From: a virus
Virus record (IMG/VR): IMGVR_UViG_3300022198_002824
Location: 1-33,894 of that record
DNA length: 33,894 nt
Strand: one strand, 5' to 3'
Part shown: in pieces, positions 1-23,000 of the stretch
Layout of the letters: every line of letters begins with the position of its first letter
Position numbering within the stretch: the stretch's first letter is position 1
Translations under genes and position numbers: made by a program
Notes under the pieces: generated by a model
Told to the model about the DNA's origin: nothing
Databases searched by the model: none
What the model saw: the letters and a program-made list of their open reading frames with translations, nothing else

Positions 1-1066
1 CTTTGTTGTTTGTGTAAGTGTCAAACCATTCTTGTTCTTTAAGATATCTTTGTTCTAAGCGTTTTTTAATTTCTATTGGAAGTATTTGTATAGAAAGTTC
101 TTCAGGAACAAACAATGGATTGATTAAACTGCCACCCATTGGATCTACCCAGCCACGCTGTATCCATTCATGATGAAAGTCTGGTACATGGAAACAGTTG
201 TATACATTTAAACATGTTGCAAGAAATACATATACATCTGGACAAACATCAAACATGCGTTTTCTATTTTCTTCAACTTGTTCCCATGACTGTCCTTTAC
301 GCAAGTATTCACCACGTTTGCCCATACCATCTAATGAAGCACCAATCTTAACAGACTCAAAGCGACTCCAAATTTTCATAACATCGAGCCCTTTGTAAAC
401 CATTTGTGAAAAGTTTGTGTTGTACTTTAATCTTACATGATACATTTTACGTTCATCAAGTTTCTTAAGAATTCTATAATGCTCTTCCATTATCAATGGC
501 TCACCACCAGCGAAGTATATTTCTTCTAGGCCGTCCATGTACGGCTCAACCTTTTTCCAAAATGTTTCTTCGTCTTTATAAGGTCTTATAATTTTATCAT
601 GTGGTAGCGGTCCATATAGTTTAACGTTATCGTCATACCAACTAGAACTTAAATCTGGTCCACAGGTTCTACATTTAAAGTTACACAAGTTTGAAAATCT
701 AAAATCAATATAAGGCAAGTTAATTTTTTCAACTGTGCCGTCTTCCAATGTGGTTCCTACTTTGTCAAAGTGATTTTCAAATGCTTCGTTGGCCCAAGTC
801 CTTGTTGTGTTTAGTCCACTGTTCTCCATAGAATAACAACGAGTGCATTCTTTGGTTGGCTTGTCTTCTAACATAGATAAACGCATCTTTCTAAGTTTTT
901 CTGAATTCCATATTTGTTCAAACGATTGATCTTTTAGGTTACCAAGTATTTCATTCATTGGTGCCATACAACACGGCAACACTCTGCCATCAGGCCATGA
1001 ATGCAAGTGCGTCCAAGGCAACATGCAAAAACGTTTTGATTTCTTAAGTGCGTATTCTTTATCCAT
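1..1066 (-). CDS. Radical SAM protein with N-terminal twitch/SPASM-like cysteines (partial)
   Basis: Open reading frame starting at ATG 1066 and running off the left edge (355 codons visible). The radical SAM cluster CxxxCxxC is C128, C132, C135 in the context SNLCNFKCRTCGPD, followed by a GGEP motif (FAGGEPLI, near residue 187). Before the core, C14, C32/C33, C74 and C77 (FCMLPW, LPCCM, ECTRC) form the cysteine set of a twitch/SPASM-type auxiliary cluster domain, here N-terminal rather than C-terminal. The family reductively cleaves S-adenosylmethionine to start radical chemistry on peptides, sugars or cofactors; the substrate here is unknown. The start overlaps the stop of the upstream glycosyltransferase-like gene by 8 bases, so it belongs to the same operon. 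Similar twitch-type radical SAM proteins are common in marine T4-like phages. The class is well supported; the reaction is not. Confidence 0.85.
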   Translation of the reverse strand, partial: MDKEYALKKSKRFCMLPWTHLHSWPDGRVLPCCMAPMNEILGNLKDQSFEQIWNSEKLRKMRLSMLEDKPTKECTRCYSMENSGLNTTRTWANEAFENHFDKVGTTLEDGTVEKINLPYIDFRFSNLCNFKCRTCGPDLSSSWYDDNVKLYGPLPHDKIIRPYKDEETFWKKVEPYMDGLEEIYFAGGEPLIMEEHYRILKKLDERKMYHVRLKYNTNFSQMVYKGLDVMKIWSRFESVKIGASLDGMGKRGEYLRKGQSWEQVEENRKRMFDVCPDVYVFLATCLNVYNCFHVPDFHHEWIQRGWVDPMGGSLINPLFVPEELSIQILPIEIKKRLEQRYLKEQEWFDTYTNNK

Positions 1067-2087
1067 GTATTTGTTTATCTATATAATCTATTTGATTTGG
1101 TATTTGTATGTTTATTAGTTTAGTTTGATTATATGATAGTATACTTTGAATTTTGTCAGAATTCAACCATTTGTTAAGGTCTTCAATAGGCATGCTCATT
1201 ATCCGTCTTAGATTATCATTTACAATTCTATCAAAACGCTGAGGATAATTCACATAATCAAAACTGTAGTTAACCATATCTGAATAGAGTTTGATTCCAA
1301 AATGTTTTTCTAGATGTTTGCATATTCCTTTAGAGCCCAAAACAATAAAAGGATTTTTATATAATATTGGTTTCCAAATTTTTTCAGTGATAAAAATACT
1401 AGTATCACTTACAATACTTTCATTAACAATGTCAAACACTGCTTGTTTATACTGTTCTGGAAGTATTTCTTGATTGCTTTGTTCGTCTATGGTTTTAGCA
1501 TTAAAGTCTAAAAGTAGTTCTTGACCTTGAAAATTTTCATTAGCCATATGTTTAGTATTAGCACCATATCTATTTAGGTAAGTTATATAACCTTTAGAGT
1601 CCCAACCATTTGAAAATAGTTTTTCAACCATTCTAAATCTATGTGGCTTAGCCGCGGCATTCATACAAATATAATGACGATATTTGTTTGGTAAATGTTT
1701 TTTTCTAATTTTGTGTTTGTTAAAATGGTCAATTGTTCTTTGTAATAATGTATACGGAAAATAAACACAATAACCTATTACTGGTTTTTCTTTGTGACTT
1801 TTACACCAACGTTTGTAATTTTTTTCTAAGTTAGCATCACACATTACTAACACAACTTTTTTGCTGTCATAGTTTTTGAGTACAATGTGCAGTTGTTCTA
1901 AAAATGTGTCTGGTTGTTTAAAATGTATTTCACCTTCAAATGCATTTGATATAACAAGGTATGGTTTATCTTTTTGACTTGCATATTGTCCAATAGTATT
2001 TTTTAAATCAGCAATACCTTTATCACGACCACAATCAAAATCGTAAACTATGTATGTGTTGTTATTGTGGTTTACCTGTTGAGGCAT
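1059..2087 (-). CDS. Putative glycosyltransferase, T-E-K motif family (paralogue 1)
   Basis: 342 aa. The C-terminal half carries FITEKIWKPILYKNPFIVLG, which resembles the nucleotide-sugar-binding TEK...P...G segment of GT10 fucosyltransferase-type GT-B enzymes. A mid-protein segment MNAAAKPHRFRMVEKL matches the equivalent N-x-x-x-x-x-x-R stretch of the paralogues at 2689-4017, 6042-7049 and 7046-8188. Its N-terminal half is closest to the 6042-7049 gene: both have YxRWCK followed by a Y-x-P-Y/F segment. No signal peptide or membrane segment is visible, so it is probably cytosolic. It overlaps the YqgE-like gene upstream by 26 bases and the radical SAM gene downstream by 8, implying translational coupling. 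A transferase of a sugar onto a phage or host glycan is inferred from motifs only; donor and acceptor are unknown. Confidence 0.6.
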   Translation of the reverse strand: MPQQVNHNNNTYIVYDFDCGRDKGIADLKNTIGQYASQKDKPYLVISNAFEGEIHFKQPDTFLEQLHIVLKNYDSKKVVLVMCDANLEKNYKRWCKSHKEKPVIGYCVYFPYTLLQRTIDHFNKHKIRKKHLPNKYRHYICMNAAAKPHRFRMVEKLFSNGWDSKGYITYLNRYGANTKHMANENFQGQELLLDFNAKTIDEQSNQEILPEQYKQAVFDIVNESIVSDTSIFITEKIWKPILYKNPFIVLGSKGICKHLEKHFGIKLYSDMVNYSFDYVNYPQRFDRIVNDNLRRIMSMPIEDLNKWLNSDKIQSILSYNQTKLINIQIPNQIDYIDKQIHG

Positions 2088-2682
2088 GTTTTTTCTCCAT
2101 GTAATTTAAAATATTTCCAGCAACATTTTTACTGTAATTGTCAACTGCGGTTGGCCAAACGTTTAAGTTTTTAAAAACATCTTCAGCATTTAAATCAGTA
2201 TATAACCAACTACTTAAATCATTATTTTGCCAAGCACCAGATAATTCACTTTCTAATTGTTTAGGTCCCCATACAGCATTACCTAAACAAACTTTATACT
2301 TGCTTGGTCCTGTTCCATTTCCTATTGCTGTTAGTATATGTCTATTGGTTGTTATTGATATTCCTGAAGCAACTGGGGTAGTATCATGGTCTAGATAATC
2401 ATGAGAGTGTAATACAAAAATTTGTTGTGTATTAATTGGACCTCCATAAAAAATTGGAGTATCACCAATATCTAATATCAAAGGAATACCTAACTCATCA
2501 AATAAATCTCCTAGTAGTGCTGACTTGGTTGGCTTATTAAATATTATTCCACCAGCACCTTCATGATCATGTTTGTACATAGCCAATGTGCTGTGATAAA
2601 ATCTTGGGTCAGCCAAATGAGGCATTGCTATTAGCATTTTACCTTTGGTTTTTCCTACGGTTGGTTGTACATTGTTTAACAT
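2062..2682 (-). CDS. yqgE: YqgE/AlgH family protein (UPF0301)
   Basis: 206 aa. The N-terminal segment GKMLIAMPHLADPRF followed by GAGGIIFNKP matches the diagnostic YqgE opening (LIAMPxLxDPxF, then GAMGxxxNKP). Downstream FYGGPI, IFVLHS, a T-x-x-x-L-x-x-IG stretch, LGNAVWGPKQLESEL and a terminal W-L-x-x-D-x-x-x-VF follow in the family order, and the length is near the bacterial norm of about 185-190 aa. The family is widespread in proteobacteria. Pseudomonas AlgH was linked to alginate control, but the biochemical function remains unresolved. In this window it sits between two glycosyltransferase-like genes, 6 bases after the stop of the upstream one and overlapping the next by 26 bases. No strong Shine-Dalgarno is visible. 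The assignment to the family is firm; its role in a phage is unknown. Confidence 0.85.
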   Translation of the reverse strand: MLNNVQPTVGKTKGKMLIAMPHLADPRFYHSTLAMYKHDHEGAGGIIFNKPTKSALLGDLFDELGIPLILDIGDTPIFYGGPINTQQIFVLHSHDYLDHDTTPVASGISITTNRHILTAIGNGTGPSKYKVCLGNAVWGPKQLESELSGAWQNNDLSSWLYTDLNAEDVFKNLNVWPTAVDNYSKNVAGNILNYMEKKHASTGKPQ

Positions 2683-2688
2683 ATACTA

Positions 2689-4017
2689 TTACTTATCATT
2701 TAAAAAATCTAATAAATTTTCCCATTCTAATCTGTGATTCCTTGCAAAAAAGTGTTTGCGATTGTGTTCTAATTTATCCCATACACTCCAATATGCCTTG
2801 TGTAATTCTTTTATATCTTGTTTGCACCATTTTTCTATATTGTTCATAATGATTGCTAGACGTTTTGATCTATCAGTCATTCCATCATATGATTCATCAA
2901 ACAATTCTGGAAATGTTTCATAGCCTTGTTCATGTAGATAAGATAAACAACCAGGACCACTTGTAATGATAAACGGATGATAATTTACAAATGGCATGTA
3001 TGTTTTCTCTGTGATAAACAACGGTGCACCTGGATGTGATTCAAACACAGTTTCAGTTACAAAACTAAAATATGTTTCTGTAAAATGTTCTTTAACCAAC
3101 ATACGTTGGTTCATATCATCTCCAATATTATTAGCATCGTAATCTAGTATGATTGGTGTTTTTGTTTTTAACCACTCTTGGCTATGCTTGTCGATCTCAT
3201 CTCGGTAGTGTTGCTGTGTTTCTGATATATAACTATCTAGATTACCAATGCTAGTTGGAGTGAAATATCTATTTAAAAAACTGTGTATGGTTTGATCTTG
3301 CCATCCACGTCTGTATATTTCGCTCATTATGTAAATTCTATGTTCTCTTGGATTAGCATTCTTACATAAAAATTTATGCGAACGTATATGATTGCGATCA
3401 AGTTCTTTTGAATCAATTAATTCCCGTTCAGCATCAACACCTTTACGTTTGTGATTCATAAAGTATCTTAGATCACATTCGTGTCTATAGTTTGTTTCAA
3501 ATACATTAAAAGGATACATTGTAATTTTTTGATCTTCACCTAGACGTTTATAAAATAAATATTTTTCGTAATTGTGTTCAATTTTTAAATCACCATACAC
3601 CATTCTTACTTTGTCAAAAGGTACACCTTTGTCATTGATGCTCCAAGTTATGTCATCTAAAAATCTTGGCATTGACAAATGAAATCCTTCGCTTGGAAAC
3701 CATATTAGTAATCTTACTTTATTATTTGGATCACGCAGTAAATTTAACACAGGTTCGTCAATATAATGAAATACATTTTCATAAAAGAAAGCCAAGTCAA
3801 TCCATTCTGGTTGTATATGATAGTATGTGATTTCATCTGGATTTATATTTTCAATGGTTTTAGAATTCCATTTTATATCAACTACTTCTAACATTTTTTC
3901 TAAATAGTTGCATTTGACATTACCATATCCGTTAGATTCTATTTTACGTTTGTGTGGTGGTACACTGTTTGATATAGGTATATTGTTAATCCAAGTTTGA
4001 TACAACAAGTTAATCAT
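2689..4017 (-). CDS. Putative glycosyltransferase, T-E-K motif family (paralogue 2)
   Basis: 442 aa, the longest of the four related proteins. It shares LFITEKTYMPFVNYHPFIIT near residue 340 and the mid-protein LCKNANPREHRIYIMSEIY block with the other members, and ends its core with the tract FPELFDESYD that is nearly repeated as FAPYIDESYD in the 7046-8188 protein. The extra length is N-terminal. TEK followed by HPF resembles the donor-binding segment of GT10-like GT-B transferases. No membrane segment or signal peptide is evident. It overlaps the preceding SGNH-like gene by 8 bases and is followed after 6 bases by the YqgE-like gene. Function is inferred from the motif and from the surrounding sugar-modification context; a different enzyme class with the same fold is possible. 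Confidence 0.55.
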   Translation of the reverse strand: MINLLYQTWINNIPISNSVPPHKRKIESNGYGNVKCNYLEKMLEVVDIKWNSKTIENINPDEITYYHIQPEWIDLAFFYENVFHYIDEPVLNLLRDPNNKVRLLIWFPSEGFHLSMPRFLDDITWSINDKGVPFDKVRMVYGDLKIEHNYEKYLFYKRLGEDQKITMYPFNVFETNYRHECDLRYFMNHKRKGVDAERELIDSKELDRNHIRSHKFLCKNANPREHRIYIMSEIYRRGWQDQTIHSFLNRYFTPTSIGNLDSYISETQQHYRDEIDKHSQEWLKTKTPIILDYDANNIGDDMNQRMLVKEHFTETYFSFVTETVFESHPGAPLFITEKTYMPFVNYHPFIITSGPGCLSYLHEQGYETFPELFDESYDGMTDRSKRLAIIMNNIEKWCKQDIKELHKAYWSVWDKLEHNRKHFFARNHRLEWENLLDFLNDK

Positions 4018-4861
4018 TTTCTTTTATCCATGGTATAATTATTTCTTTGCAGAAGGCTTCGTGAGCTTCTGCTGTAGGGTGCCCCATTATCCTTTTCCAT
4101 TCTGTTTTTTCGCTTTTTTTATTAGTTTGTAAATTTAATCTATGTCCACGCACATTTTCTAATCCTGTTGGCGGATTATTAGTTTTGTCTTCTTCTAATT
4201 TTCCATGGTGCCCATTATCCAACATCCATTCTGCCATTCCGCCACCATTTTTATGAAACCATATATTTTTCCAGTCAACTTGTTCTCTAATTTGATTTAC
4301 CAATTCTATATTATATGGATGTTCTAAACAATCTTGCCATCCAAAGAAACACAATAAAGGAATTTTATTAAGTTTACAATACATTTGTAAATGTGATATA
4401 TTTTCATATGATAACATAGTTCTTTGATCGCTTGATACTGCTAAATTATATCCATTGATAATTTTTGAAGTTAATTCTAGTTTTGAAGAATCCCACCATG
4501 CATGATTTAGATCTGTAGTTTTTAGCATAATCATATTATCTATTTTAATAGATTCATTATAACATTGTCTAGTATCCCATTTTATTTTTTCACTTTTTAG
4601 TTTTTCAAATAATTCTGGATTTTCTAATTTATCTAAATGTAAAGTTGCTCTCCAAAAACCAGAAAATTGTACAATGCATAATTTTGGAGTTGTTAATTGT
4701 TGTAATTTCATAATAGCAGAACGCACAATATATTCTTGTCCTACTCCGCCTTGTGCAACATTAGTAACTGTGTATTTGTCTGATAACTTTTTCTGTAAAA
4801 CATTTGCCCAACTGTCTGGGTCATGTGTAAATGAACAGCCGCTTGTCACGATGTTAATCAT
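4010..4861 (-). CDS. SGNH-hydrolase-like protein (copy A)
   Basis: 283 aa from the ATG at 4861, which is preceded by AGAAGG at good spacing. A longer reading from 4906 adds 15 residues with no homology to the sister proteins, so the inner start is preferred. The protein opens MINIVTSGCSFT, where the GCSFT serine fits SGNH block I. AQGGVGQEYIVR supplies a block II glycine, and VQFSGFWRA sits where block III is expected. Near the C-terminus WFHKNGGGMAEW and GHPTAEAH supply the block V histidine. The usual Asp three residues before that His is absent, so hydrolysis is not assured. Sister copies are at 5294-6073 and 8185-8862. Family members act as esterases, lipases or O-acetyl transfer and removal enzymes on carbohydrates. 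The start overlaps the kinase stop by 8 bases. Confidence 0.65.
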   Translation of the reverse strand: MINIVTSGCSFTHDPDSWANVLQKKLSDKYTVTNVAQGGVGQEYIVRSAIMKLQQLTTPKLCIVQFSGFWRATLHLDKLENPELFEKLKSEKIKWDTRQCYNESIKIDNMIMLKTTDLNHAWWDSSKLELTSKIINGYNLAVSSDQRTMLSYENISHLQMYCKLNKIPLLCFFGWQDCLEHPYNIELVNQIREQVDWKNIWFHKNGGGMAEWMLDNGHHGKLEEDKTNNPPTGLENVRGHRLNLQTNKKSEKTEWKRIMGHPTAEAHEAFCKEIIIPWIKEND

Positions 4862-5294
4862 AATTTGCCTTCTTGTCCCATTTGTATTCCTGTATTTCAT
4901 CTGCAATTCTTATTGACCATAATTCAGCATTTTGAGTAGGCACTCTAAAGTCATATTCTTTGGGTGGTACAAACATTTTATTTGTATCATCAAATCTACC
5001 TTCTTTTATTGTATCTACCCATACTGTATAATCTGCATCAAAATCTTTTCTTGTTTCTGGTAATGGACATACAAAATCAGCAATAACATGTTTACCGTCA
5101 TTAACAGCCTTTTGTGCTAATGATTTCATTCTGTTTGCCTGTCTTGTTCTACCTTCATAGGTGAAATCCCAATCATTTGCTTCTTCTCTTACTTTATCTG
5201 CGTTTAACCAAACTGCATTTAGTTTTGGTGTCAACGCATTTGCCAAATAAGTTTTACCACTTCCTGGTAATCCCATAATTAATATTTTTAACAT
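4854..5294 (-). CDS. APS-kinase-like P-loop kinase
   Basis: 146 aa. A Walker A motif GLPGSGKT (residues 8-15) is followed by LNADKVR (30-36), matching the D-x-D/x-x-R segment of adenylylsulfate kinases. GRTRQANRM (48-56) matches the R-x-x-N region, and a DGKHVIADFVCPLPETR segment parallels the G-x-x-V-I-x-x-x-I-S-P-x-x-x-x-R of CysC. APS kinases phosphorylate adenylylsulfate to PAPS, the sulfate donor. The protein is shorter than bacterial CysC (about 200 aa), so a relaxed P-loop kinase with another small substrate is a real alternative. It lies between two SGNH-like genes, overlapping the stop of one by 1 base and the start of the other by 8. No sulfotransferase is seen in the window. Confidence 0.7.
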   Translation of the reverse strand: MLKILIMGLPGSGKTYLANALTPKLNAVWLNADKVREEANDWDFTYEGRTRQANRMKSLAQKAVNDGKHVIADFVCPLPETRKDFDADYTVWVDTIKEGRFDDTNKMFVPPKEYDFRVPTQNAELWSIRIADEIQEYKWDKKANYD

Positions 5295-6073
5295 TATAAT
5301 AATCTTTCTACTATCTCTTTTGCAAAATGCCGTTGTGCTTCAGTTATAGGATGACTTCCAGGAAACTGTTCGTAACCTTTGTCAATACACCACTCTCGTA
5401 GTCCACCATAGTTGTTGTGGAACCACCATGTTGACCAATCAACTTGTTCCCAAAGGTGTACAGCATTTTCAAAACGATTAACAATTAAATTACCATGTTC
5501 ATTTGAATTGTTTCCATCTGTATTGTTACTTCCTGTAAATATATCTTGCCAACACATGTTGATTAATTTTAAACCGTGTGCTTTGCAATACCATTGTATT
5601 CTCAGTATGTGTTCAAGTGTTTGTACAAACTGTAGTTCTTCGTTGTGGTAATTTGTGATATACAACTTCATATCTTGATTTAATTCTTTGCTGTCAAACT
5701 CCCAATGCCCAAAGCCACCTCCACTTTTTACCCAATTAGATGTAGCGTGTGTTTGCCATTTGCCTGTGTATGGTTGATTTTGGAATCCACCATTGCCCTT
5801 CATATCATTATAAATTTTATCATAGTTAGGCGATTCCTGATTGTAAAATAATTCAAAACGATTTGGATTTGACCACATCACTGCCACTGTGGGATTTTTA
5901 TCCACATAGTGTGGTATGGTAGCAATCAAGTTCCTGCTGATCAATCCATTGCCACTAGCCATTTCCGCACAGTTGATCACTTGCCAATCTGCGATATGAT
6001 TTGGCCAGGCAATGTTTGGCTCTACTGCGTGTGCAGTAAAACTACACCCCGATGTTATTAGATATCTGTTCAT
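5294..6073 (-). CDS. SGNH-hydrolase-like protein (copy B)
   Basis: 259 aa from ATG 6073 (MNRYLITSGCSFTAH), which has AAGG seven bases upstream. A longer reading from 6112 adds 13 unrelated residues. The GCSFT nucleophile motif, a block II-like MASGNGLISR glycine, a WSNPNR segment where block III is expected, WWFHNNYGGLREW and the terminal SHPITEAQ histidine motif parallel the other two copies. Its block III region reads W-S-N, closer to the canonical Asn than the W/F-S-G of the others. It overlaps the upstream glycosyltransferase-like gene by 32 bases and the APS-kinase-like gene by 1. The likely role is deacylation or transacylation of a glycan, inferred from fold and neighbours only. Confidence 0.65.
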   Translation of the reverse strand: MNRYLITSGCSFTAHAVEPNIAWPNHIADWQVINCAEMASGNGLISRNLIATIPHYVDKNPTVAVMWSNPNRFELFYNQESPNYDKIYNDMKGNGGFQNQPYTGKWQTHATSNWVKSGGGFGHWEFDSKELNQDMKLYITNYHNEELQFVQTLEHILRIQWYCKAHGLKLINMCWQDIFTGSNNTDGNNSNEHGNLIVNRFENAVHLWEQVDWSTWWFHNNYGGLREWCIDKGYEQFPGSHPITEAQRHFAKEIVERLL

Positions 6074-7049
6074 ATATAACCTTATGATACTTGGTTTGCC
6101 AGTCTGTGTCAAGTGCTAGTTGTTGATTGTACAGCATTTTTTCTTTTACTGCTTCTATATCAACTGCAATTTGATCTAGCGGTGTTGAGCAAAATTTTAG
6201 TATTTCTTGTTTAGGATCGTTGTTGTAATCAAGTACTTCATCATATAATTTAAATCCATATGATCTTAAATTATCATAATATGCTTGTGCATTGCCTGTG
6301 CCATAATATAAAAACAATTGCAAGTTTAGAATAGGCTTCCATGATTTCTCTGTAAAGAACACAGTGTCATCTTCGTGTGTTTCGTTGATAATGTTTAACC
6401 AACTGTTGGCCATTAATTCTTTTGGAACTATTTTATCATCTTTGATTAAATCATCTGCTTCTATATCTAATGTGATTGGTTCTATGTTTTCTTGTGTAGT
6501 ATTATAGACATCAACCAAACTGATGTAATTGTCCATTAGGTTATTTTGTTTACAGAAGTTTACAAAATCTAAACGCATGGGTTTTACTGCACCGTTTAAA
6601 CTCATTAGATGTTTGTTGCGTTTATAATTAAATTCTTGTACATGTTCATATTTGCGTTGCAGTGTTAAAAAGTAAAATGGATATGTGTATGTATTTTTTA
6701 TCACATAGTTTTGATTGTTATCTTTACACCAACGATCATATTGTTCATTAAAATTAATGCTGGGCATTATTATATGCACATCATTTTGATCAATTGCATT
6801 TTCTTGTAAACGTTTGTGTAGCATTTCAAACACAGGTAAGTCATCTTCTAACGATGGTCCTGGTAAGTCTGATTCAGTTAGTTCTTCAATAACAAATGCA
6901 CACGGTTGTTTGTTTTCTTTGCAGTTATGATATTTACGAGCATGGGCAACCATAAGTGGTAAAGGATCGCCAACAAATAAACCTTCACGTTCTCCATTTT
7001 TACTTGGAGTATACCTCCAATAAGGATAACTGTTATACAGTATTGTCAT
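6042..7049 (-). CDS. Putative glycosyltransferase, T-E-K motif family (paralogue 3)
   Basis: 335 aa. It carries VFFTEKSWKPILNLQLFLYY followed by a G-rich turn, the counterpart of the TEK...PF...G donor-binding-like segment, and LMSLNGAVKPMRLDFVNF as the mid-protein conserved block. The N-terminal half (YDRWCK, then TYPFYFLTLQRKY) is similar to the 1059-2087 protein, so these two form a subgroup. The histidine-proline seen before the last Phe in other members is replaced by Gln-Leu. The start ATG at 7049 overlaps the preceding stop as ATGA. No transport signal is seen. Sugar transfer is inferred. Confidence 0.55.
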   Translation of the reverse strand: MTILYNSYPYWRYTPSKNGEREGLFVGDPLPLMVAHARKYHNCKENKQPCAFVIEELTESDLPGPSLEDDLPVFEMLHKRLQENAIDQNDVHIIMPSINFNEQYDRWCKDNNQNYVIKNTYTYPFYFLTLQRKYEHVQEFNYKRNKHLMSLNGAVKPMRLDFVNFCKQNNLMDNYISLVDVYNTTQENIEPITLDIEADDLIKDDKIVPKELMANSWLNIINETHEDDTVFFTEKSWKPILNLQLFLYYGTGNAQAYYDNLRSYGFKLYDEVLDYNNDPKQEILKFCSTPLDQIAVDIEAVKEKMLYNQQLALDTDWQTKYHKVIYEQISNNIGV

Positions 7050-8188
7050 TGCATTAATCCTTTTACTAATTCTAAATGTATTAGCACACGACTTTGCAAG
7101 TGTGCGTAGTTATATATTGCAGTCTGCAACATATCAACAGGCACACCGTTTTTACACAGATGTTCAACTTGATCAATTGCTAAGTTCATTCTTTTGTATG
7201 CACTTGTTTCGTTATCGTATGATTCATCTATATATGGTGCAAATGTTTTATAACCTTGTGCTTGTAATTCTTTTAAATAATGTTGTGTTGATAGCATCAC
7301 AAAAGGATGACAATTAATAATTGCTTTGTAGGTTTTTTCTGTTGGGAAAAATTGTGGATTGCAATCGTGTGCGCCACTGTGTGTTTCAGACACAACACTT
7401 AGATACGTGTCAGCAAATAATTTTTTATCAAATGGATATCCACTAAAATGTTTGCCATATAGACCTTGATTAACATTTTCTTCATCTAACGAATGTGGCC
7501 AGTGCTTACAAAACTTTTCAAAATCTTTTTCTGACAGTATGCTTGATACATATGGATAATAATCTTTTAGATTGGGGAAATGTCTTTGATCTTCTTCTGT
7601 TCTTGTTAAAGTAATTAATCCATTATTCATTAATCTACGTTGCCAATAAAGTGCAACCTGTTTCAATCTCATAAACTTGTCTGGCTTACCATTTAATGAC
7701 AAAAATGTTCTTACTGCATTTTTGGTTCGAGCTTCTTGTGGAGTAACATGATCACAAATTTTTTGTTCAATAATTTTTTTGTATGCATCTACTTCATAGT
7801 ATGGAAACGTAATAATATTAAATGGCTTTGGTTCCAAGTTGTGTTTTTCAGCAATTGCCTTGTGTGTTTCTTTGCCTAAGTCTGTGGAATAAAAATAATA
7901 AATGCTTTTTGGATCAATATTGTGATAGTTGACTAAGTCATGTCCAAGCAGTATTTGTTTTTCAACATGCAGGTCATGTTCAAATGCAGGTTCACGCATG
8001 TAACATATACATAATTTCTTGCCACCCATTTTAATTGCATTTGGTACACCGTGATTCCAAACATCGTGTTTGATAAAAGGATAATCAATATCACTGCCAT
8101 AAAATGCCAACTCGTAATTTTCTCCAATATCAACAAATTGACTTATGGATTCTTCTTTGATGTATTGACCTATAATTAATGATGTCAT
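7046..8188 (-). CDS. Putative glycosyltransferase, T-E-K motif family (paralogue 4)
   Basis: 380 aa. The C-terminal half has FFPTEKTYKAIINCHPFVML followed by YLKELQAQGYKTFAPYIDE, closely paralleling the 2689-4017 protein (EKTYMPFVNYHPF, then YLHEQGYETFPELFDE). The mid-protein block is TFLSLNGKPDKFMRLKQV. These two proteins form a second subgroup, distinct from the 1059-2087 and 6042-7049 pair. The ATG at 8188 overlaps the stop of the SGNH-like gene as ATGA, so translation of the pair is coupled. A shadow frame at 7933-8136 is not a gene. Function as a GT-B-like transferase is inferred from the TEK motif. Confidence 0.55.
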   Translation of the reverse strand: MTSLIIGQYIKEESISQFVDIGENYELAFYGSDIDYPFIKHDVWNHGVPNAIKMGGKKLCICYMREPAFEHDLHVEKQILLGHDLVNYHNIDPKSIYYFYSTDLGKETHKAIAEKHNLEPKPFNIITFPYYEVDAYKKIIEQKICDHVTPQEARTKNAVRTFLSLNGKPDKFMRLKQVALYWQRRLMNNGLITLTRTEEDQRHFPNLKDYYPYVSSILSEKDFEKFCKHWPHSLDEENVNQGLYGKHFSGYPFDKKLFADTYLSVVSETHSGAHDCNPQFFPTEKTYKAIINCHPFVMLSTQHYLKELQAQGYKTFAPYIDESYDNETSAYKRMNLAIDQVEHLCKNGVPVDMLQTAIYNYAHLQSRVLIHLELVKGLMQ

Positions 8189-8862
8189 ATTAAACTTGCT
8201 ATCCTTGGTATAATAACTTCTTCAGCAAACTTATCATGATGTTCTTTTGTAGGATGGTTGCCTTCTGCAAATCCAGGATCCCACATTTCATCAACGCACC
8301 ATTCTGCCATACCGCCTGTTTTCTTGTGAAACCAAAATTGTTTCCAATCAACTAGTGAAATATCTACATCAACGTTTGACATTTCATCTTTCCACCAAAA
8401 GTTTAGCATAGGTATATGATTAAGTTTACAGTACCATTGTGTTCTTGCAATATGTTCTAAACTTTCAATAGCACTTTGTTTTTCGTTGTAGATTTTTCTG
8501 TAAGGTTCAAACAAATGTTTTTCTGCAAGTTCGTTTTCAGATACCTTGCTGTCTACACCATTGCCACCGTTCTTAACCCAATAGCCATTTTGTGTTTTGT
8601 CTATGTAGGGTGATCCTTGAGCAAATCCAAAATCATGTTCAGTTAAAAACGCACGACGATGTATGCCGCTCCACTGACAAACTAATATATTGCGTTGACC
8701 TTTGAGTTGTTCTAATTTATCAATTGCTTGTCTTGAAATGTAATCTTGCCCAGCGGCACATGAAGCCACGTTATGTACTTGCCATAGTTCTTCTAGTTTG
8801 CCCACCCAAGTCATTTCTGAATTGTAGGTGAAGCTACATCCAGATGTAATCACATTTATCAT
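8185..8862 (-). CDS. SGNH-hydrolase-like protein (copy C)
   Basis: 225 aa, first gene of the minus-strand operon. Ser10 lies in MINVITSGCSFT (block I), VASCAAGQDYISR gives the block II glycine, VCQWSGIHRR sits at block III, and the C-terminus has WFHKKTGGMAEW followed by GNHPTKEH with His203. An acidic residue (E200) sits three before that His, giving E-x-x-H in place of the canonical D-x-x-H; this makes copy C the best candidate for an intact catalytic site. A sigma70 promoter lies just upstream (8869-8897), and its predicted transcription start coincides with the ATG. The next gene overlaps by 4 bases. Confidence 0.68.
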   Translation of the reverse strand: MINVITSGCSFTYNSEMTWVGKLEELWQVHNVASCAAGQDYISRQAIDKLEQLKGQRNILVCQWSGIHRRAFLTEHDFGFAQGSPYIDKTQNGYWVKNGGNGVDSKVSENELAEKHLFEPYRKIYNEKQSAIESLEHIARTQWYCKLNHIPMLNFWWKDEMSNVDVDISLVDWKQFWFHKKTGGMAEWCVDEMWDPGFAEGNHPTKEHHDKFAEEVIIPRIASLI

Positions 8863-8902: not shown

Positions 8903-9463
8903 TTATAAGATATGATCGGCCAGGTTTAAATCAATCATCTGTTTGGCCGTAAAGTATTGATCGCTAGGCGAATTTAATTTTTTACGTACATCTGCTAGGC
9001 TCAACCCAGTTGCTTCACGTAATATATTTAGACAACGCAGTTCACAGTTGTTGTTTTCTTTCATTTGTGATCTCATGTCGTGCATTTTGGATTCCATCAT
9101 ATCTGAGTGCTGATGGTTCATAATTCCTGTGTTTTTAGCAACATATCTTTCGCCTTGTTTGCCACTAGCAAAAATTAATAGTGCTGAACTCATTACAGCA
9201 CCAACACCAATAGTTGAAATATGATGATGACTATTTTTCATAATATCAATTAGTGCAAATGCTTCATATAGATCTCCACCATATGAATTAATATACAGTT
9301 TTAATGTGCGTTTGGGTTTCTTGTTGAGGTTTGCACTTAGTATCCATTTTACTGCTTCGGTTACAGAGTCGTTGTCAATATCACCTGTAAGATAGTGTAT
9401 GTCATTGTCATGCAGATGAGCATCAATTCTGTCTGCGGCTGTGTACTGATCATATTTTTTCAT
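8903..9463 (-). CDS. clpP: ClpP-type serine protease
   Basis: 186 aa. LYINSYGGDLYEA (56-68) is the ClpP-type INSxGG oxyanion region. Ser92 in GVGAVMSSA aligns with the nucleophile of ClpP, His117 in NTGIMNHQH with the catalytic His, and Asp168 in SPSDQYFTA with the catalytic Asp. The triad therefore appears complete. Length is close to mature ClpP. No ClpX/ClpA partner ATPase lies in the window, so it may work with the host unfoldase, form a stand-alone peptidase, or serve in virion maturation, as ClpP-fold proteases do in some phage heads. It sits on the opposite strand, next to the baseplate genes. The 40 bases after its stop hold the promoter of the next operon. Confidence 0.85.
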   Translation of the reverse strand: MKKYDQYTAADRIDAHLHDNDIHYLTGDIDNDSVTEAVKWILSANLNKKPKRTLKLYINSYGGDLYEAFALIDIMKNSHHHISTIGVGAVMSSALLIFASGKQGERYVAKNTGIMNHQHSDMMESKMHDMRSQMKENNNCELRCLNILREATGLSLADVRKKLNSPSDQYFTAKQMIDLNLADHIL

Positions 9464-14008: not shown

Positions 14009-17000
14009 ATGGCTGAGCAATTTATTGCATCTAAACAACTACCATATGTTTTACAATCAACTAAGTTAAAAAACTTTTTTGATTCCACAGTTGATCAGTG
14101 GTTTAAAAATGAAGATAGTTCATTTGAACGTGGGTTTGTAGGACAACGCCAAGGTAGATTACTAAACACTATTAAAGACTCATATTTAAAAGAACCAACA
14201 TTTGATAGAACCTATTATCAACTTGAACCAACAGCAATTATAAGAAATGCTGATACACAAACAATATCATATCAAACTACATACGAAGACCTTGTAAACA
14301 AAATTAGATTTGATGGTGGTAATATTAATGATCATGCAAGACTTTTTGAATCTAAATATTATTCGTATGCACCGCCTATTGATATTGACAAATATTTAAA
14401 CTATTCAAATTATTATTGGTATCCTTATGCTGATGACTTATCGAGTGAATCAGCTGGGGCATTTTCTACTATTCCGTCAAAACCAATTGACGGGACAAGC
14501 TCAAAAAGTATTGTATTACCAACTGATATAGTTGGAGAAAAAACCTATACTGCACCAGATGGTACAGTTTTTACAAATGGACTACATGTTAGATTTGAAG
14601 GGTCACATGTTTCTGGAGTAAGTTATCAATATTATTACACTATAGATTCGTTAACTATTGATACAGCAGGAACCGGGTATGCTGTAAATGATTCAATTTT
14701 AATCGCAGGCAAAACAATTGCTAAAGTAACAGCAGTAGGAGGTAGTGGTGAAATTACTGCTATTGAAGTTACGTCATCAACACTTGACGATGGTGACTTA
14801 CCATCTACTACTGTTATTACAAGTGTAAGTGGTGCTAGTGGAGTCATAGGATCTACAACAACAAGAAAAGAAATAACATATTTTGTTGAAGGAGTTGGAT
14901 CAGAAATTAAACTAATCGATACACGAACACTAAGAAATATAAATGACTCAACTGCGGCAACAAAAGATTACATAACAATTCAACGTGGTGCCAAAGACGG
15001 AAACCTTTGGTCAAAGTCAAATGGCTGGGTTCATAAAGATACATTAGAAAGTTATCCTTCAGTTACATCAACTTCACAAACAGACCAATTATGGGATGAC
15101 ACTGCTTGGGATATTACAGCCTTTGATGTGCAAATTTCATCGTCAACTACAGCATTTACTAGATCATCAACAAGACGTGCCATAAGACCAATTATTGAAT
15201 TTAAACGAGATATTGAATTATATGATTACGGTTATAATCATTTAACTGATGTAACAGTTGTTGAATCATTATTGACCAAAACACAGGTAGAAGGTCAATC
15301 TGCGATTAATATTGACGGATACACAATGCAAAATGAAGATACAATTTTATTTATAAATGCATCAAGTCAAGACGATTATGTTCAATGGGATAGTGATAGT
15401 GTATTGTGGGATCATGATACTGACGCTGATCCAACAACCGGTGGAGGTGGTGGCACCGGTGGTGACGTAGGATGGGATGTATCAAGTGATACATTTAATG
15501 TGGCGGCATCTATATGGAAAGTTTCTGGTGTAGGATCAAGTATAGTATTAACACAACTTACATCTACAGTTAATACAAATGATAAAGTTTATGTTAAAAA
15601 AGGTGACGTCAATAAAGGTACCGAATGGTATTACGACGGATACAATTGGAATCAAGCACAAACCAAAACAGCATCAAATCAGGCACCGTTGTACAATTTA
15701 TATGACAATGATAAAGTTATCTTAAATGATGTAGGTATATATCCGTCATCAACATTTACAGGATCAAAAATATTTGGTTATAAAATTGGCACTGGTACAA
15801 ATGATTCTGAATTAGGGTTTCCTCTTTCATATTCAGCAGGTGTTGACAAAAGTGATATTCAATTTTGTAATTTCTTAAATGAAGATTCATATACATATAG
15901 TAATGGAACAATTACAGGATACAATTATTATAAACAGTTTACATATCCAGAAACTATTGCTAAAATTATTGACTATGAAGTTAATGTTAACCCAAGTCGA
16001 TCAAATCAAAAGATAAACAAATATTTTATCAATGGTCAAGAAGCACCAGCATTAATTTTAGTTAGAGGAAATACCTATAACTTTAATTTTAGCTCTCCTG
16101 AATCATCAGCAACAGGGTATTCAAATGCAGATCATCCGTTTTATATTTCAACAGGTACTGCTTGGTCGCCAGGAGCATATACTGGCGAGTATACTGGAGG
16201 GGTAACAGGATCAAGAGCATACTATGGAGGAACTGCATCTACATTAAAATTTACTGTTCCTTCAAATGCTCCAGACAGATTGTACTATCATTGTGGTAAT
16301 CATGATAAGATGGGTGGACAATTTGTAATTGTTGACAATCCTGTAACTACACTAGATGCCGCAACAGAAACAAATTATAAGAATGAATGGATAATTGATC
16401 CAAGTAAAAAATTATCTCAAAGATTAGTCCAAGAACACACTGTAAGTAATAAAAATTTAAGTAGTCCTGTTGTGCTTGAAGTTATTCCTTCGTCAGTATT
16501 AGATATCAGTGTTTTTAAAAATGGTGTAAGGTTAGTCTTTGGTACAGACTTTACTTTAACAAATAGTTTAGTTTTAAATTTTACTACAAGTTTAGTAAAC
16601 GGAGATTTTATAAAAATATTTTATAAATCAAATAATCCAGCGCCATTAAAAACAAGTAACTATTTTGAAATACCAAAAAATTTAGAAAATAATGCATCAA
16701 ATCAAGATATAGGTACAGCAACATATAGTGAATTATTTGAACATTTCAAATCGATTATTCAAAATCAAAAAGGATTTGTTGGTTCAGTAAATGGTAATAA
16801 CAACTACAGAGATACTCTTCGAGATATAAGTCTAGGTGATGTTATATTACAACACAATGCTCCACTGCTTAAAGCAATGGCACTTGCAACTAATAGTGAT
16901 TTAGATATTGTAGAATCAATTAGATACACAAAAGATAGATATCAAGAATTTCAATTGAAGTTTTTAAATGCAGTTAATAACATACAAAATACTACTCAAA

Positions 17001-20000
17001 TAGATTCTTTAACCACAGCACAACTTGTTGATAAAGCACTAACAAATATTAATGTTAGTAAATCTCTCTCAGACCCATACGCATACTCAAATTTAATTGC
17101 CAGTGGAGATAGATATACTAGCGAAACACATACTATAACTACATCTAATTTAACTTGGGGGACACAAAGTACTTTTATAAATCTTAATTCAATAACTCAA
17201 GAAGTATTTAATACAGAACCAGGCTTAGTAATTTCTAGTTCATTTGATCCTGATATTGATTATGCTACTAAGGCATTATACATTTATAAAAACAATGTGC
17301 AAATGATTATCAATCATGATTATATTGTTGATCAATCGTCAAACGGGACTAAACTTGTTTTTTTAGGAAAACCAAGTGTTAAACCAAAATTAGGTGATGT
17401 TATTACCATTAGATATTATGAAACTAGACAACCAACTTGGATACCTTATACTCCAGCATCACTAGGTGTAGGTAAAGTCTATAAGCCACAGGAATTAACT
17501 GACTCGATTACATATTCTAGTGGTACACGAAAATTTATTCAATGTCATGATGGTTCTTTAATTTTGAAATATAACGATTTTAGAGACACAGCATTATTAG
17601 AATTAGAAAAAAGAATATACAATACTATGAATCATTTAGTTTCTGATCAAGACACAGCAACACTATATGAAATTAGTACTATTCAACCAAATAAGTTTAA
17701 TCCAACCAGTTGGTCTAGAAAAGAAGTAACTGATTTGTTGCGTCCAATATTTACTAGATGGACTAACGAGAATGCAGTAAATTATCAAGAAAATACAGGC
17801 TATGCAGTAACAATAACACTAAAAGCAAATGCTAATTATGTTTTATCAAATTATGTAGCGGCTGGGTATGTTCCTTCTATTAGTACTACTCCGCAAAAGT
17901 TTACAGTTGGCGAAGAAGTACGAGGAATGACTAGTGGTGCAATTGGTAAAGTTACTGCGGTTAGCGATGATACAAATACCGTAGCAGTGTCTGGAATAGT
18001 TGATAGTTTTCAAATTAATGAAGTTATATTCGGATCAACTACCGGCATTGGTAGACAAATAAGCAATGTTAATACTGACTGGCGAGTTTTAAATTATTCA
18101 TCACTTGTAGATCAAGATGGTGATGCTTTGCCAGGTCATTGGAGAGGTATATATCGTTGGTATTATGGAACTGATAGACCACATACACATCCATGGGAGA
18201 TGTTAGGATTTAGTCAAAAACCAATATGGTGGGATCAATATTATACTTGGACAAATCCAACAGTTAGATCTCAATTGATTTCTGATATAGAACAAGGAAT
18301 TATTAGAGCCGGCTCTAAAGAAAACTATACAGACAGATCTTATCTTAGTTCAGATAATGTTTATAAGAAACCAGGTTTTAGTTCTTATGTTCCAGTTAAT
18401 AATAGTGGACAATTACTAAGTCCTTTAGAAATTGGTATTATTAGTTCAAACCCAACAGAATATAATGCACAACAAGATTGGAAGTTTGGAGATGGTGCAC
18501 CAGTAGAACATGCATACTTAACATCATGTGCTTATCCATATGCCGTACAACAATTATTATATCTAACAAATCCAGGATTATATATAGAACAATTATGGAA
18601 TATTAATAATATTGATAATGCACTTAGTGATGTAAAACAATTGATTGATAAAACTACCGGTAAAAGACCAACAAATAAAAACTATTACGTTCATACAGAA
18701 ACTGATACTAATAATGTGAGATATTTAAGATCAGGAATACAAAATTTTATTTCAGATTATGTAATATTTAAAGGAAATCAAGTAGGATTAACGTTTGGCG
18801 AAGTGATTAGAAATATACAAGCAAACTTGATGTATCGTTGTGCTGGATTTATTGACCCTACAAAATTACAAATTGAATCTGAAGCATATGATTCTACAAG
18901 TAAAAGTACAAATATTATTATTCCACCAGAAGATATTAATTTAACTTTATATCAAGGTGCAAGTATTCAAGAAGCATCGTATAGTGCTGTTATAGTACAA
19001 GTAGTTGAAGGAGGTTATAAAATATATGGTTACGATATTACAAATCCATATTTTGTAACCTATAAACCTTTATCTAACAGTGCAAGTTATACAGTAAGAG
19101 TTGGTGGTACAGATATTTCACCAAGTGCATACAATCCAGGAGTAACCTATCATAAAGATGAAGTTGTTGTGTATTTAAATGAATATTATCAATGTACAGT
19201 TCCGCACACTAGTTTATCAACTGATACTGCACCAAATCTTTTATATTGGAAAAAAATTAAAACACTACCACAACAAGGTGGAACAGTGGTTGAGAATTAT
19301 ACTCAATATGATTACAGTACAAGTGTAAATGTTGACTACGGTACTGTATTTAAAACCCGCCAAGCAGTGTATGACGCTGTGATAGGTTATGGAGAATATC
19401 TACAAACACAAGGATGGATATTTGATAATCATAATGTTGACCTTGGCGAACAAATGGACTGGCGTTATTCAGCAAAAGAATTTTTATTCTGGAGTTTAGG
19501 AAAATGGCAAAAAGGTGACTATATTACTCTAAGTCCAAGTGCATCACAAATAAAATTTAAACCAACCACTGGTGTAGTTCAAAGTTTAGCAAACATAATT
19601 AATGGTGCGTATAGTGTTTTAAACAAAGAAGGTTTTGGATTAGATTCAAAAAACATATCAGTTATTAGAGATGATGATCAGGTTACTGTTTCTCATAAAA
19701 ATGGAATTGGTATATATGGTTTAAGATTATTTGTAAAAGAAATAGAACATGCTATTACTATAAACAATAATACAATTTTTAATGATACCATTTACAACAC
19801 ATTGTTGGCACAAAGACAACCACGTGTTAAAATATCAACAGTAAGAACTAACAACTGGAATGGTAAACTTGAAGCAGACGGTTTTATTATCAATAACACT
19901 ACACTAATTAATAACTTTGAAAAATCTGTAACTGATACTAGATATCTATATGACGTTGATGCTGAAAAAGTTGATACTGATTTTAGAAATGCGGCGATGC

Positions 20001-23000
20001 ATTTAATTGGATATCAAGAAAGAGATTATCTAACAAATCTTGGTATATCAAAACGTAATCAAGTTAAATTATATCAAGGTATGATCAAACAAAAAGGTAC
20101 AACAAATGCTATTGATCGGTTATTACGTTCAACTACAGTGAGCACAGATCAATCGTTTAATACATATGAAGAATGGGCATTTAAAGTTGGTGAGTTTGGT
20201 TCAACAAACTTTAATCAACAAATTGAATTAAGATTGAAGGCTCAAGATGTTGTTACTGATCCTTTAATGTTTGAATTTGTTTTACCAACTGATAGTGTTG
20301 CAACAGCAGGGTATGATATTACAACAGATGAAACTGTAACCATAGACATTGACGATACTACTCGTTGGTTGAAAAAACCACATGGTGAAAAAACTCTTGC
20401 TAATCTATGGCCAACAACTGCAACAGTAACATCAAATATACCTAGTGCAGGTTATGTGCATTGGGATGATTCAACATATCAAGCATATGATTCAACTGCA
20501 TTAGATAATATCTACGGTTCACAAACAGGTAATGTAGCAATAGGATCAACTGTTTGGGTAGCCAAAGATGTTCAAGGTGGTAAAGATTGGAATGTGTATA
20601 AGTTATATGATCTAGGCACAAAAATTGACAATGTAATTTCTTACGGTGATGCCAATACTGCTATGAAGGTTACTGTCGATAGCACAGGTGCAACAATTGG
20701 TTCAAGCAAAAAAGTTATACTGCACAAAACATATGATGGCGATGGTACTTTAGTAATTGATCCAACAGCGTGGGGAACGCACACACTAACATTAAATCCT
20801 TCAACACCAACCCCTCCAACAGTAACAATACCATTTGCGAATGTGGCAGGTAGTGGTGCATCATTGGCTGTAGGAAATATTGCAGGTTCAGTGGCTACAG
20901 TTACATCAACAGGAGGTACTGGTTTTGCTGTGGGAGATATAATTACATTTACAGGTACAACTGGTAGTGGTGCATCGGCAACAGTTGATGCTGAAACAGG
21001 TGGAGCACCTACATTGTTAACACTTAACAGTGGTGGTTCAAATTATTCAGCGGCACCAAATGGATTTACAGTTACAGATTCAAGTGGTACAGCAAAAACA
21101 CTTGGAGTAGATTACACAGCCCCTACATTTACATTTACTGGTTCAGGCACAAGCGGAGTGTTTGGTGAAATACAAGATTTAATTATAACAGGCGGCGGCA
21201 CAAACTATCAATCTCCAACAATAAAAATTTCAAAATCAGATGGGTCTACAATAATTATAGCATCTAGTGATATAACTGTTACTAGCGGAGTAATAACTGC
21301 AATAAATGTGCCAAGTTACAATGCTGTAACATTTCTTAATCAAGGATTCAGTTCGGGTATTACATCAACCGCCACAGGTAGTATTACAGTAAATGATACA
21401 AAATCAAACTACATTGTAAATTTAAACTCTCAACTAACTAAGGTCCATGCACTTGGAACTTTAACTGCTAATGTAACCACAGCATGGGACGGTACAGCAC
21501 CGTCTGTGGTTATAGAATCATGGGACGGTGTTTCTGCTACAACATTATACACAGTTCCAACTGCTAACTTACAATCAATTGCTTCATCAAATATTTCAGC
21601 AAGTGGTTCAGTAACAGATAATGCAAATGTAACAGTAAGAGCAAATGTTTCTGTATCATCAGCAACAGCTGGTGCTATTACACTAACACTAAACTATACA
21701 TCAAAACAGTATGACATTACCAAAGCAGATGGGACAGCAGAATACGTAACCACAGCAGATAACACAACAATAAATGCAAGTGGTATACAGTTGCTTGATT
21801 GGAAAGACGTAAGACTAAACAGTGTGTTAGATAGTTCTATGATATCTACTACTGTAAGTGGAACATTACAAAACTTTTTAACTGGCACAGGGTTAAACTC
21901 GGCAGTATGGTCTGAAGGGGATCTTGTTTGGTTAGATGATGATTCAACTGGTAAGTGGGGAGTTTATAGATACACTGCAAATGCAACAATCATGTCAACA
22001 TATAATACCATACGTGGTACGGAAAGCACAGCAGTATCTCCAGCATATGGCGGAACATGGATATTACACAGTGGTGTTGATTATGATGATGCTACTCAAA
22101 CTACAGCAAGTTATTTTGCAAGTACAAAACGTAGACAGTCAGATAAAATTATTACAGAACAGTTTGAACAAGCAGTATTATATGATGATAGAACAAACAA
22201 TGTTAGTTTAACACTTGTACCTTATGATCCTGCAAAAGGTATATTACCACCTAACGCTGATAGAGAAATAGAATATAAATCAGAAATAGATCCAGCAGTG
22301 TATAACAATCATTCTGACACAAATCAAATCAGTACAAGCAAACCATGGACTGATAAACATGTTGGACAAGTTTGGTGGGATTTATCAACAGCAAGATATA
22401 TTGATTATGAATCACATGATAATGCATATCGTAGAACGTACTGGGGTAGATTATTTCCAGGGGCAACAGTAGACATTTATGAATGGGTGTCATCATCACA
22501 ACCACCAACAAATTATTTAGGTACAGGCACAGTTAAGTCAACAACAGAATATTCAACTAAAGTTGTAACTAATTCATCAACACAAACAACAACTACTACA
22601 TATTACTATTGGGTTAAAAATGTAACCACAGTTCCATCATTAGAGGGTAGAACTAACGATACAGCAACAGTGGCAAATGTTATTACATCTCCAATCACGC
22701 AAGGATTAAATTATTTTGCACCAATTTCACAAAACGCTATTTCAATTGCAAATGTATTAGATTATACTACAAAAGAAAATACAGTACTACAATTAAACTA
22801 TAGAAAACGCAATGGCGATGATAAAACAAATTCTAAACATGCACAGTGGCTATTGATCAAAGAAGACTATCCAAGTTCTCCAATCCAAAATCAAATTTGG
22901 AATAAAATGGTTGACAGTTTAGTTGGTTATGATCAAACTGGCGCAACAGTTCCTGATACTTCATTATCGTTAAATGATAGATATGGTAATAAAGTAAGAC

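Follow-up and report, generated by a model that had tools for sequence, protein, structure and literature searches.

Among the closest described counterparts of the locus reported here is the host-recognition cluster of the pelagimyophages, marine T4-like myophages in which an island beside the tail genes carries several glycosyltransferases together with radical S-adenosylmethionine (SAM) cassettes and has been read as modifying or remodelling the O-chain of lipopolysaccharide (LPS) (PMC7029224). A similar arrangement was found in the window analysed here, a virus record of 33,894 bases (IMG/VR IMGVR_UViG_3300022198_002824, positions 1-33,894), in which a minus-strand operon running from 8862 to 1 carries glycosyltransferase and radical SAM genes near the baseplate genes gp25 and gp6; these adjoin the operon with a ClpP-like gene and a short open reading frame (ORF) in between. 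The pelagimyophage report names GT8 as the main glycosyltransferase family and has no hydrolase in its main text (PMC7029224), whereas the window combines three SGNH-fold homologues (SG1 to SG3) with four members of a family here called TEK, a P-loop kinase, an AlgH/YqgE protein and a radical SAM enzyme. The lineages differ as well: gp6 of the window shows 37-39% identity to gp6 of the jumbo myophages SCTP-2, Atu_ph07, PA5oct and RaK2-like phages. In outline, glycan islands of phages and radical SAM genes carried by phages are already known, and what is new is the undescribed TEK glycosyltransferase family and the conserved combination of TEK, SGNH and radical SAM genes in phages and Bdellovibrionota. 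Neither the TEK family, nor its GT-B/GT10-like assignment, nor the recurrent combination with SGNH and twitch radical SAM genes was found in the literature searched, outside of which lie many journals and all preprints.

An earlier reading of this DNA (the original prediction) had described an SGNH-hydrolase/glycosyltransferase cassette in one overlapping operon. The genes are all present on the minus strand (Table 1), end to end or overlapping, with most junctions overlapping by 1-26 bases, and the kinase, the YqgE-like protein and the radical SAM enzyme were confirmed by profile matches. The cassette therefore stands, but the strict alternation of the two families does not, since the order is SG1-TEK4-TEK3-SG2-kinase-SG3-TEK2-AlgH-TEK1-radical SAM. 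Four accessory enzymes had been announced while only three were named, and the radical SAM gene runs off the end of the window. For SG2 and SG3 the ORFs as listed, from TTG at 6112 and 4906, are probably too long, as homologous N-termini begin at ATG codons near the upper coordinates given in the table.

Table 1. Features of the operon and its flank in the window
Feature	Position	Strand	Basis
SG1, SGNH-fold putative O-acyl hydrolase/transferase, 225 aa	8185..8862	-	AlphaFold2 model, TesA match, conserved residues
TEK4, predicted GT-B fold glycosyltransferase with GT10-like active-site motif, 380 aa	7046..8188	-	AlphaFold2 model, VIA match, conserved residues
TEK3, paralogous putative glycosyltransferase, 335 aa	6042..7049	-	Homology to TEK1 (phmmer 4e-18); keeps R and ET..TEK residues
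SG2, SGNH-like	5294..6073	-	Alignments; one tree clade, 98/99
P-loop kinase, 146 aa, accessory	4854..5294	-	AAA_33 1.7e-9; phrog_10255 kinase 3.5e-32
SG3, SGNH-like, fast-evolving or replaced slot	4010..4861	-	Alignment
TEK2, paralogous putative glycosyltransferase, longer N-terminal part, 442 aa	2689..4017	-	Alignment and tree
AlgH/YqgE (DUF179, PF02622) protein, accessory	2062..2682	-	Pfam 5.2e-29, 101.7 bits against a cut-off of 27
TEK1, paralogous putative glycosyltransferase, 342 aa	1059..2087	-	Alignment, phmmer, tree
N-terminal twitch/SPASM radical SAM enzyme, cut by window end	2..1066	-	NF033640, SPASM, CxxxCxxC
ClpP-like protein, between cassette and baseplate genes	8903-9463		phrog_94 head maturation protease, 1e-20

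The four TEK proteins of the window share an invariant Arg and the TEK motif, and pairs of them match in phmmer at 1e-18 to 1e-14, in agreement with the original prediction that they form one family. The AlphaFold2 model of TEK4, built from an alignment of 50 relatives, reached a predicted local distance difference test score (pLDDT) of 89.0 and a predicted template modelling score of 0.89. Structural comparison with VIA aligned all of the protein (residues 1-380), comprising two Rossmann-like domains, to GT-B glycosyltransferases; 375 of 998 chains had Z of at least 8, the listed ones being GT-B enzymes. The T4 DNA glucosyltransferases BGT (Z 12.5, root mean square deviation (rmsd) 5.1, 281 residues aligned) and AGT (Z 12.1) scored highest, with the glycosyltransferase of phage HY126 close behind, TarM at 11.8 and the Helicobacter pylori alpha-1,3-fucosyltransferase (FucT) at 10.9 (rmsd 3.6, 239 aligned). 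On this model the GT-B fold of TEK4 is firm, and its closest family within GT-B is not, because several of these matches are tied. Foldseek alone gave no PDB match below 0.001 for TEK4 (best 1.4e-3, SdgB), and one structural match in BFVD is a 788-aa protein bearing the name of a UDP-glucose dehydrogenase. For TEK1, TEK2 and TEK3 the proposed glycosyltransferase function is supported through homology to TEK4.

Within the family, R174, E268, E284 and K285 (TEK4 numbering) were found in 50/50 members and E66 in 49/50. In hhalign a TEK profile of 112 sequences met GT10 exactly at the E..TEK motif, with ET..TEK lying on EN..TEK (P=6e-4, at a probability of only 28%), and control profiles of GT9, GT4, SG and radical SAM gave P values of 0.1-0.42. 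The GT10 alpha-1,3-fucosyltransferases (PF00852) are likewise GT-B enzymes with this motif at the aligned position, but the identity is about 11%. The five TEK residues, in the order R174, E268, E284, K285 and E66, may correspond to R195, the Glu of the EN motif, E249, K250 and E95 of H. pylori FucT; the family is accordingly best described as GT10-like rather than GT10 proper. The collected family comprises 239 sequences, or 112 at 80% identity. No significant family match was obtained for the TEK proteins in Pfam, PHROGs, NCBIfam or PDB sequences: at 0.001 none of the 50 members matched a PHROG, and the few Pfam matches were weak, scattered and unrelated. A weak match of TEK1 to XcbB/CpsF (16 against 125 bits) was discarded.

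The three SG proteins are homologous as had been proposed, with 36-41% identity to SG1, 46 invariant columns and phmmer values down to 3e-25 and 6e-28. The AlphaFold2 model of SG1 (pLDDT 93.4) resembles Escherichia coli TesA in VIA (Z 14.7, rmsd 3.0, 159 aligned), the O-acetyltransferase PatB scoring lower, so that the SGNH fold is supported by the model for SG1 and by homology for SG2 and SG3. G8, S10, T12, R69 and H203 (SG1 numbering) are present in 43/43 family members. The family thus shares with SGNH/GDSL hydrolases the fold, the block I G-x-S-x-T motif and a C-terminal catalytic-type His, but differs in lacking a conserved Asp three residues before that His. Because Ser10 and His203 are universal and the usual Asp is not conserved, catalysis is likely to proceed by a Ser-His dyad, and the proteins were filed by fold only. 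The block III Asn of the oxyanion hole is not evident either; in the alignment its column shows S/T-G..R. Pfam matches are partial (DUF6071 in 18/43, GDSL in 4/43). Of the original prediction the SGNH fold was retained, but not the direction of the reaction, as these proteins may either trim or add acyl groups.

By score the radical SAM enzyme belongs to the named subfamily N_Twi_rSAM (NF033640; 368 bits, the cut-off being 170), here embedded among TEK and SGNH genes. Its CxxxCxxC motif is intact (CNFKCRTC), and a SPASM match at residues 14-78 (6e-15) places the auxiliary iron-sulphur domain at the N-terminus. The only PDB match of the family profile was BtrN, through this auxiliary domain (E 3e-4); BtrN is a dehydrogenase acting on an aminocyclitol. 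The statement that no named system is known to have this gene set is right only in part, as the radical SAM subfamily is named and similar marine-phage islands have been reported (PMC7029224).

The cassette was found in near-identical order in nine further contigs, with protein identities as low as about 45%, a recurrence far beyond chance. Because the largest of these contigs reach 328 kb and 243 kb, the window is probably a piece of a jumbo-phage genome. Six of the nine carry a fifth paralogue, TEK5, which is absent from the window, and most of these six also have a long radical SAM gene upstream. In the TEK tree the ten orthologs of each of TEK1 to TEK4 and the six of TEK5 form single clades. 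The pairing of TEK1 with TEK3 suggested in the original prediction was recovered (97/93), but that of TEK2 with TEK4 was not: TEK4 is sister to TEK5 (100/100) and TEK2 leans to TEK1/TEK3 (86/85). The duplications thus predate the ten phages, and since the ortholog slots are kept across all of them the copies are not redundant, each slot probably having its own job. SG1 and SG2 form clean clades and SG3 a weaker one, the deep SG branches not being resolved; the trees give no support to duplication of an ancestral two-gene unit. SG3 is only 57% and 39% identical to its counterparts in L013 and L005, against 78-92% for SG1, SG2, the TEKs and the radical SAM enzyme, which marks its slot, from these comparisons, as the fastest to evolve or be exchanged. 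The core order is conserved between relatives, while SG3, the kinase and AlgH vary. The kinase was not found in the close relatives L005 and L013 and is therefore placed outside the cassette core; AlgH/YqgE turned up in L005, L006 and L013 alone, which are the closer relatives.

Further genes were seen in individual relatives. L018 has three additional radical SAM genes, and in L005 (12941-13342) a phage SufE (Pfam 2.6e-34) lies beside radical SAM genes, with a similar ORF, judged from the look of its sequence, in L006 (12929-13330). SufE is an iron-sulphur assembly protein, and perhaps the phage copy supplies clusters to the radical SAM enzymes. A LacAB/RpiB sugar isomerase (1e-41) is inserted in the cassette of L007 (9305-9775), and in L006 (3335-3865) an accessory protein without Pfam hit that is sulfotransferase-like by eye.

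Starting from the cassette radical SAM enzyme, 71 non-cassette aquatic viral loci were gathered; some of these are near-copies of one another, which makes the counts partly dependent. Each carries several NF033640-type radical SAM genes (3-8, mostly 5-7). SG was present in 56 loci and TEK in 29, with all three families together in 22, and 34 of the 55 TEK genes have a same-strand radical SAM gene no more than 300 bases away. The co-occurrence of the SG and TEK families, whose absence from related genomes would have refuted the original prediction, was thus found in related as well as unrelated genomes. Among the neighbours conserved there are a carbamoyltransferase in 50 loci, a DegT sugar aminotransferase in 20 and an NAD-epimerase in 18, besides amidinotransferase-like and GNAT-like genes; two further families, present in 54 and 44 loci, have no Pfam hit and resemble glycosyltransferases by eye. 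A UDP-glucose-dehydrogenase-like gene is a neighbour in two phages (L027, L030) and one bacterium (L067), and in L124 by the look of the sequence. Open frames of 838-862 aa matching the radical SAM profile (L192:8902, L208:6778, L154:8926) probably encode two fused radical SAM enzymes. The Vibrio phage K566 (L066, 14965-23752) has four related radical SAM genes whose neighbours look like other glycosyltransferases, and no TEK or SG.

A profile search found TEK in 4/291 Bdellovibrionota genomes. Some of these genes adjoin a GT9 heptosyltransferase, a GT2 gene, a UDP-glucose-dehydrogenase-like gene and a membrane protein, and others lie inside radical SAM clusters. Ribosomal-protein-like and tRNA-synthetase-like ORFs nearby, recognised by eye, argue against their being prophage genes. 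In the Bdellovibrionota loci L123, L124 and L125 several radical SAM genes and TEK are accompanied by two small hydrophobic proteins that recur as a pair. A TEK-pattern scan of 84,980 genomes returned one locus, a result that cannot show absence given its poor recall, the earlier TEK patterns being carried by none of the 55 TEKs in the radical SAM loci. No detectable TEK2, SG1 or either of two distant TEK relatives was found in the annotated phage genomes searched.

The reading we favour, at a probability of about 50%, is that the cassette is a cytosolic system for glycan assembly and decoration in a jumbo myophage, most likely remodelling a glycan of the host envelope. The four paralogous TEK enzymes, probably inverting and GT10-like, would add successive different sugars from nucleoside diphosphate (NDP)-sugars; the SGNH-fold proteins, acting through the conserved Ser and His as esterases or acyltransferases, would determine how the chain is decorated with O-acyl (acetyl) groups; and the twitch/SPASM radical SAM enzyme would make or modify an unusual sugar, in related phages being fed by the UDP-glucose-dehydrogenase-like enzyme, DegT aminotransferase, epimerase and carbamoyltransferase. 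By a simple hydropathy count no membrane segment is predicted in any operon protein, so the chain would be assembled on the cytosolic face, carried either by the LPS core of the host or by virion proteins. The same count gave four or more hydrophobic segments in only 2 of the 1,244 ORFs of the 71 loci, and for these reasons a phage-encoded flippase/polymerase pathway within the flanks examined is unlikely. With the LPS core or a precursor exported by host machinery as acceptor, the receptor could be altered and competing phages excluded.

The folds agree with the original prediction of a glycan system acting on the virion or the host surface, but sequence alone cannot choose between the two. 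Two points favour the host envelope: bacterial relatives of TEK lie among envelope-type genes, and the marine-phage islands have been read in this way (PMC7029224). Several observations weigh against the favoured reading. The window is a 34-kb fragment, and no NDP-sugar pathway gene lies within it. The fold and residue patterns do not fix the donor or acceptor of the TEK proteins, which match no curated glycosyltransferase family; PF00852 gave no match among the 50 members or in five viral records, the latter search having had no positive control, although PF00852 matches did appear in the Bdellovibrionota search. The residue three positions before the SG His is acidic in only 12/43 members (8 D, 4 E), and virion-structural-looking genes adjoin the cassette in related contigs, which fits a virion target equally well.

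The foremost of the alternatives, less likely than the favoured reading but not far behind it, is that the same enzymes glycosylate proteins of the phage's own virion, in the tail fibres, the baseplate or the capsid, and so mask or tune the particle. The operon adjoins gp25/gp6 and the ClpP-like protease, conserved ORFs judged by eye to be virion-structural occur in 39 and 34 of the 71 loci, and all enzymes are soluble with no flippase or lipid-linked step found. SPASM enzymes, moreover, often modify polypeptides. Virion glycosylation is established in mycobacteriophages, according to work cited in PMC12619734. Against such a target, the bacterial TEK homologues lie beside heptosyltransferase and envelope-type genes and not phage genes, and an acceptor protein is not identifiable. 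Clearly less probable is a soluble glycosylated small molecule or peptide, natural-product-like or resembling a ribosomally synthesised and post-translationally modified peptide, made by the radical SAM array and tailored by TEK and SGNH enzymes. The arrays of 3-8 SPASM radical SAM genes with carbamoyltransferase, amidinotransferase-like and GNAT-like genes, all common in natural-product clusters, would suit it, but many loci carry sugar enzymes, no exporter was found, and the conserved neighbours included no recognisable gene for a precursor peptide or recognition element, though no search was aimed at these.

Hypermodification of phage DNA by the TEK enzymes, in the manner of T4 AGT and BGT and with the kinase and radical SAM enzyme in a base-modification pathway, is disfavoured and would be quite surprising. 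The two T4 enzymes, phage-encoded like TEK4, are its best structural neighbours by Z, with the HY126 enzyme close behind, and thymidine hypermodification, where it is known, can involve P-loop kinases and radical SAM enzymes. However, the likeness is at the level of the fold, without a sequence relation, and the GT-B matches tied within about 1-2 Z units are mostly not DNA enzymes. No base-modification gene was found: in the 328-kb and 243-kb relatives, which are possibly incomplete, a search for a thymidylate-synthase-family hydroxymethylase gave only weak, spurious SbcC-like matches. The kinase was not found in two close relatives, and bacterial TEK homologues lie in chromosomal sugar clusters.

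Downstream of gp6 the window contains a single ORF of 3,786 aa (14009-25369), which probably encodes a giant virion protein. In L127, L139 and L142, too, gp6 is followed by long open frames.

For a large phage family matching no Pfam or PHROG model, this analysis offers a structure-based function together with a residue-level test, and it ties the TEK family to the twitch radical SAM enzymes, a named subfamily. A broader and more tentative proposal, which we regard as doubtful, is an unnamed system of aquatic phages and Bdellovibrionota in which twitch radical SAM arrays make radical-derived sugars, TEK enzymes assemble them and SGNH enzymes tune their acylation, giving unusual glycans on cell or virion surfaces. 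The Vibrio phage K566 might serve in the laboratory as a model for the radical SAM part, and the TEK genes on Bdellovibrionota chromosomes may open a route to genetics in a group of which some members can be cultured. If the product is indeed a radical-modified glycan, it would represent new chemistry at the phage-host surface.

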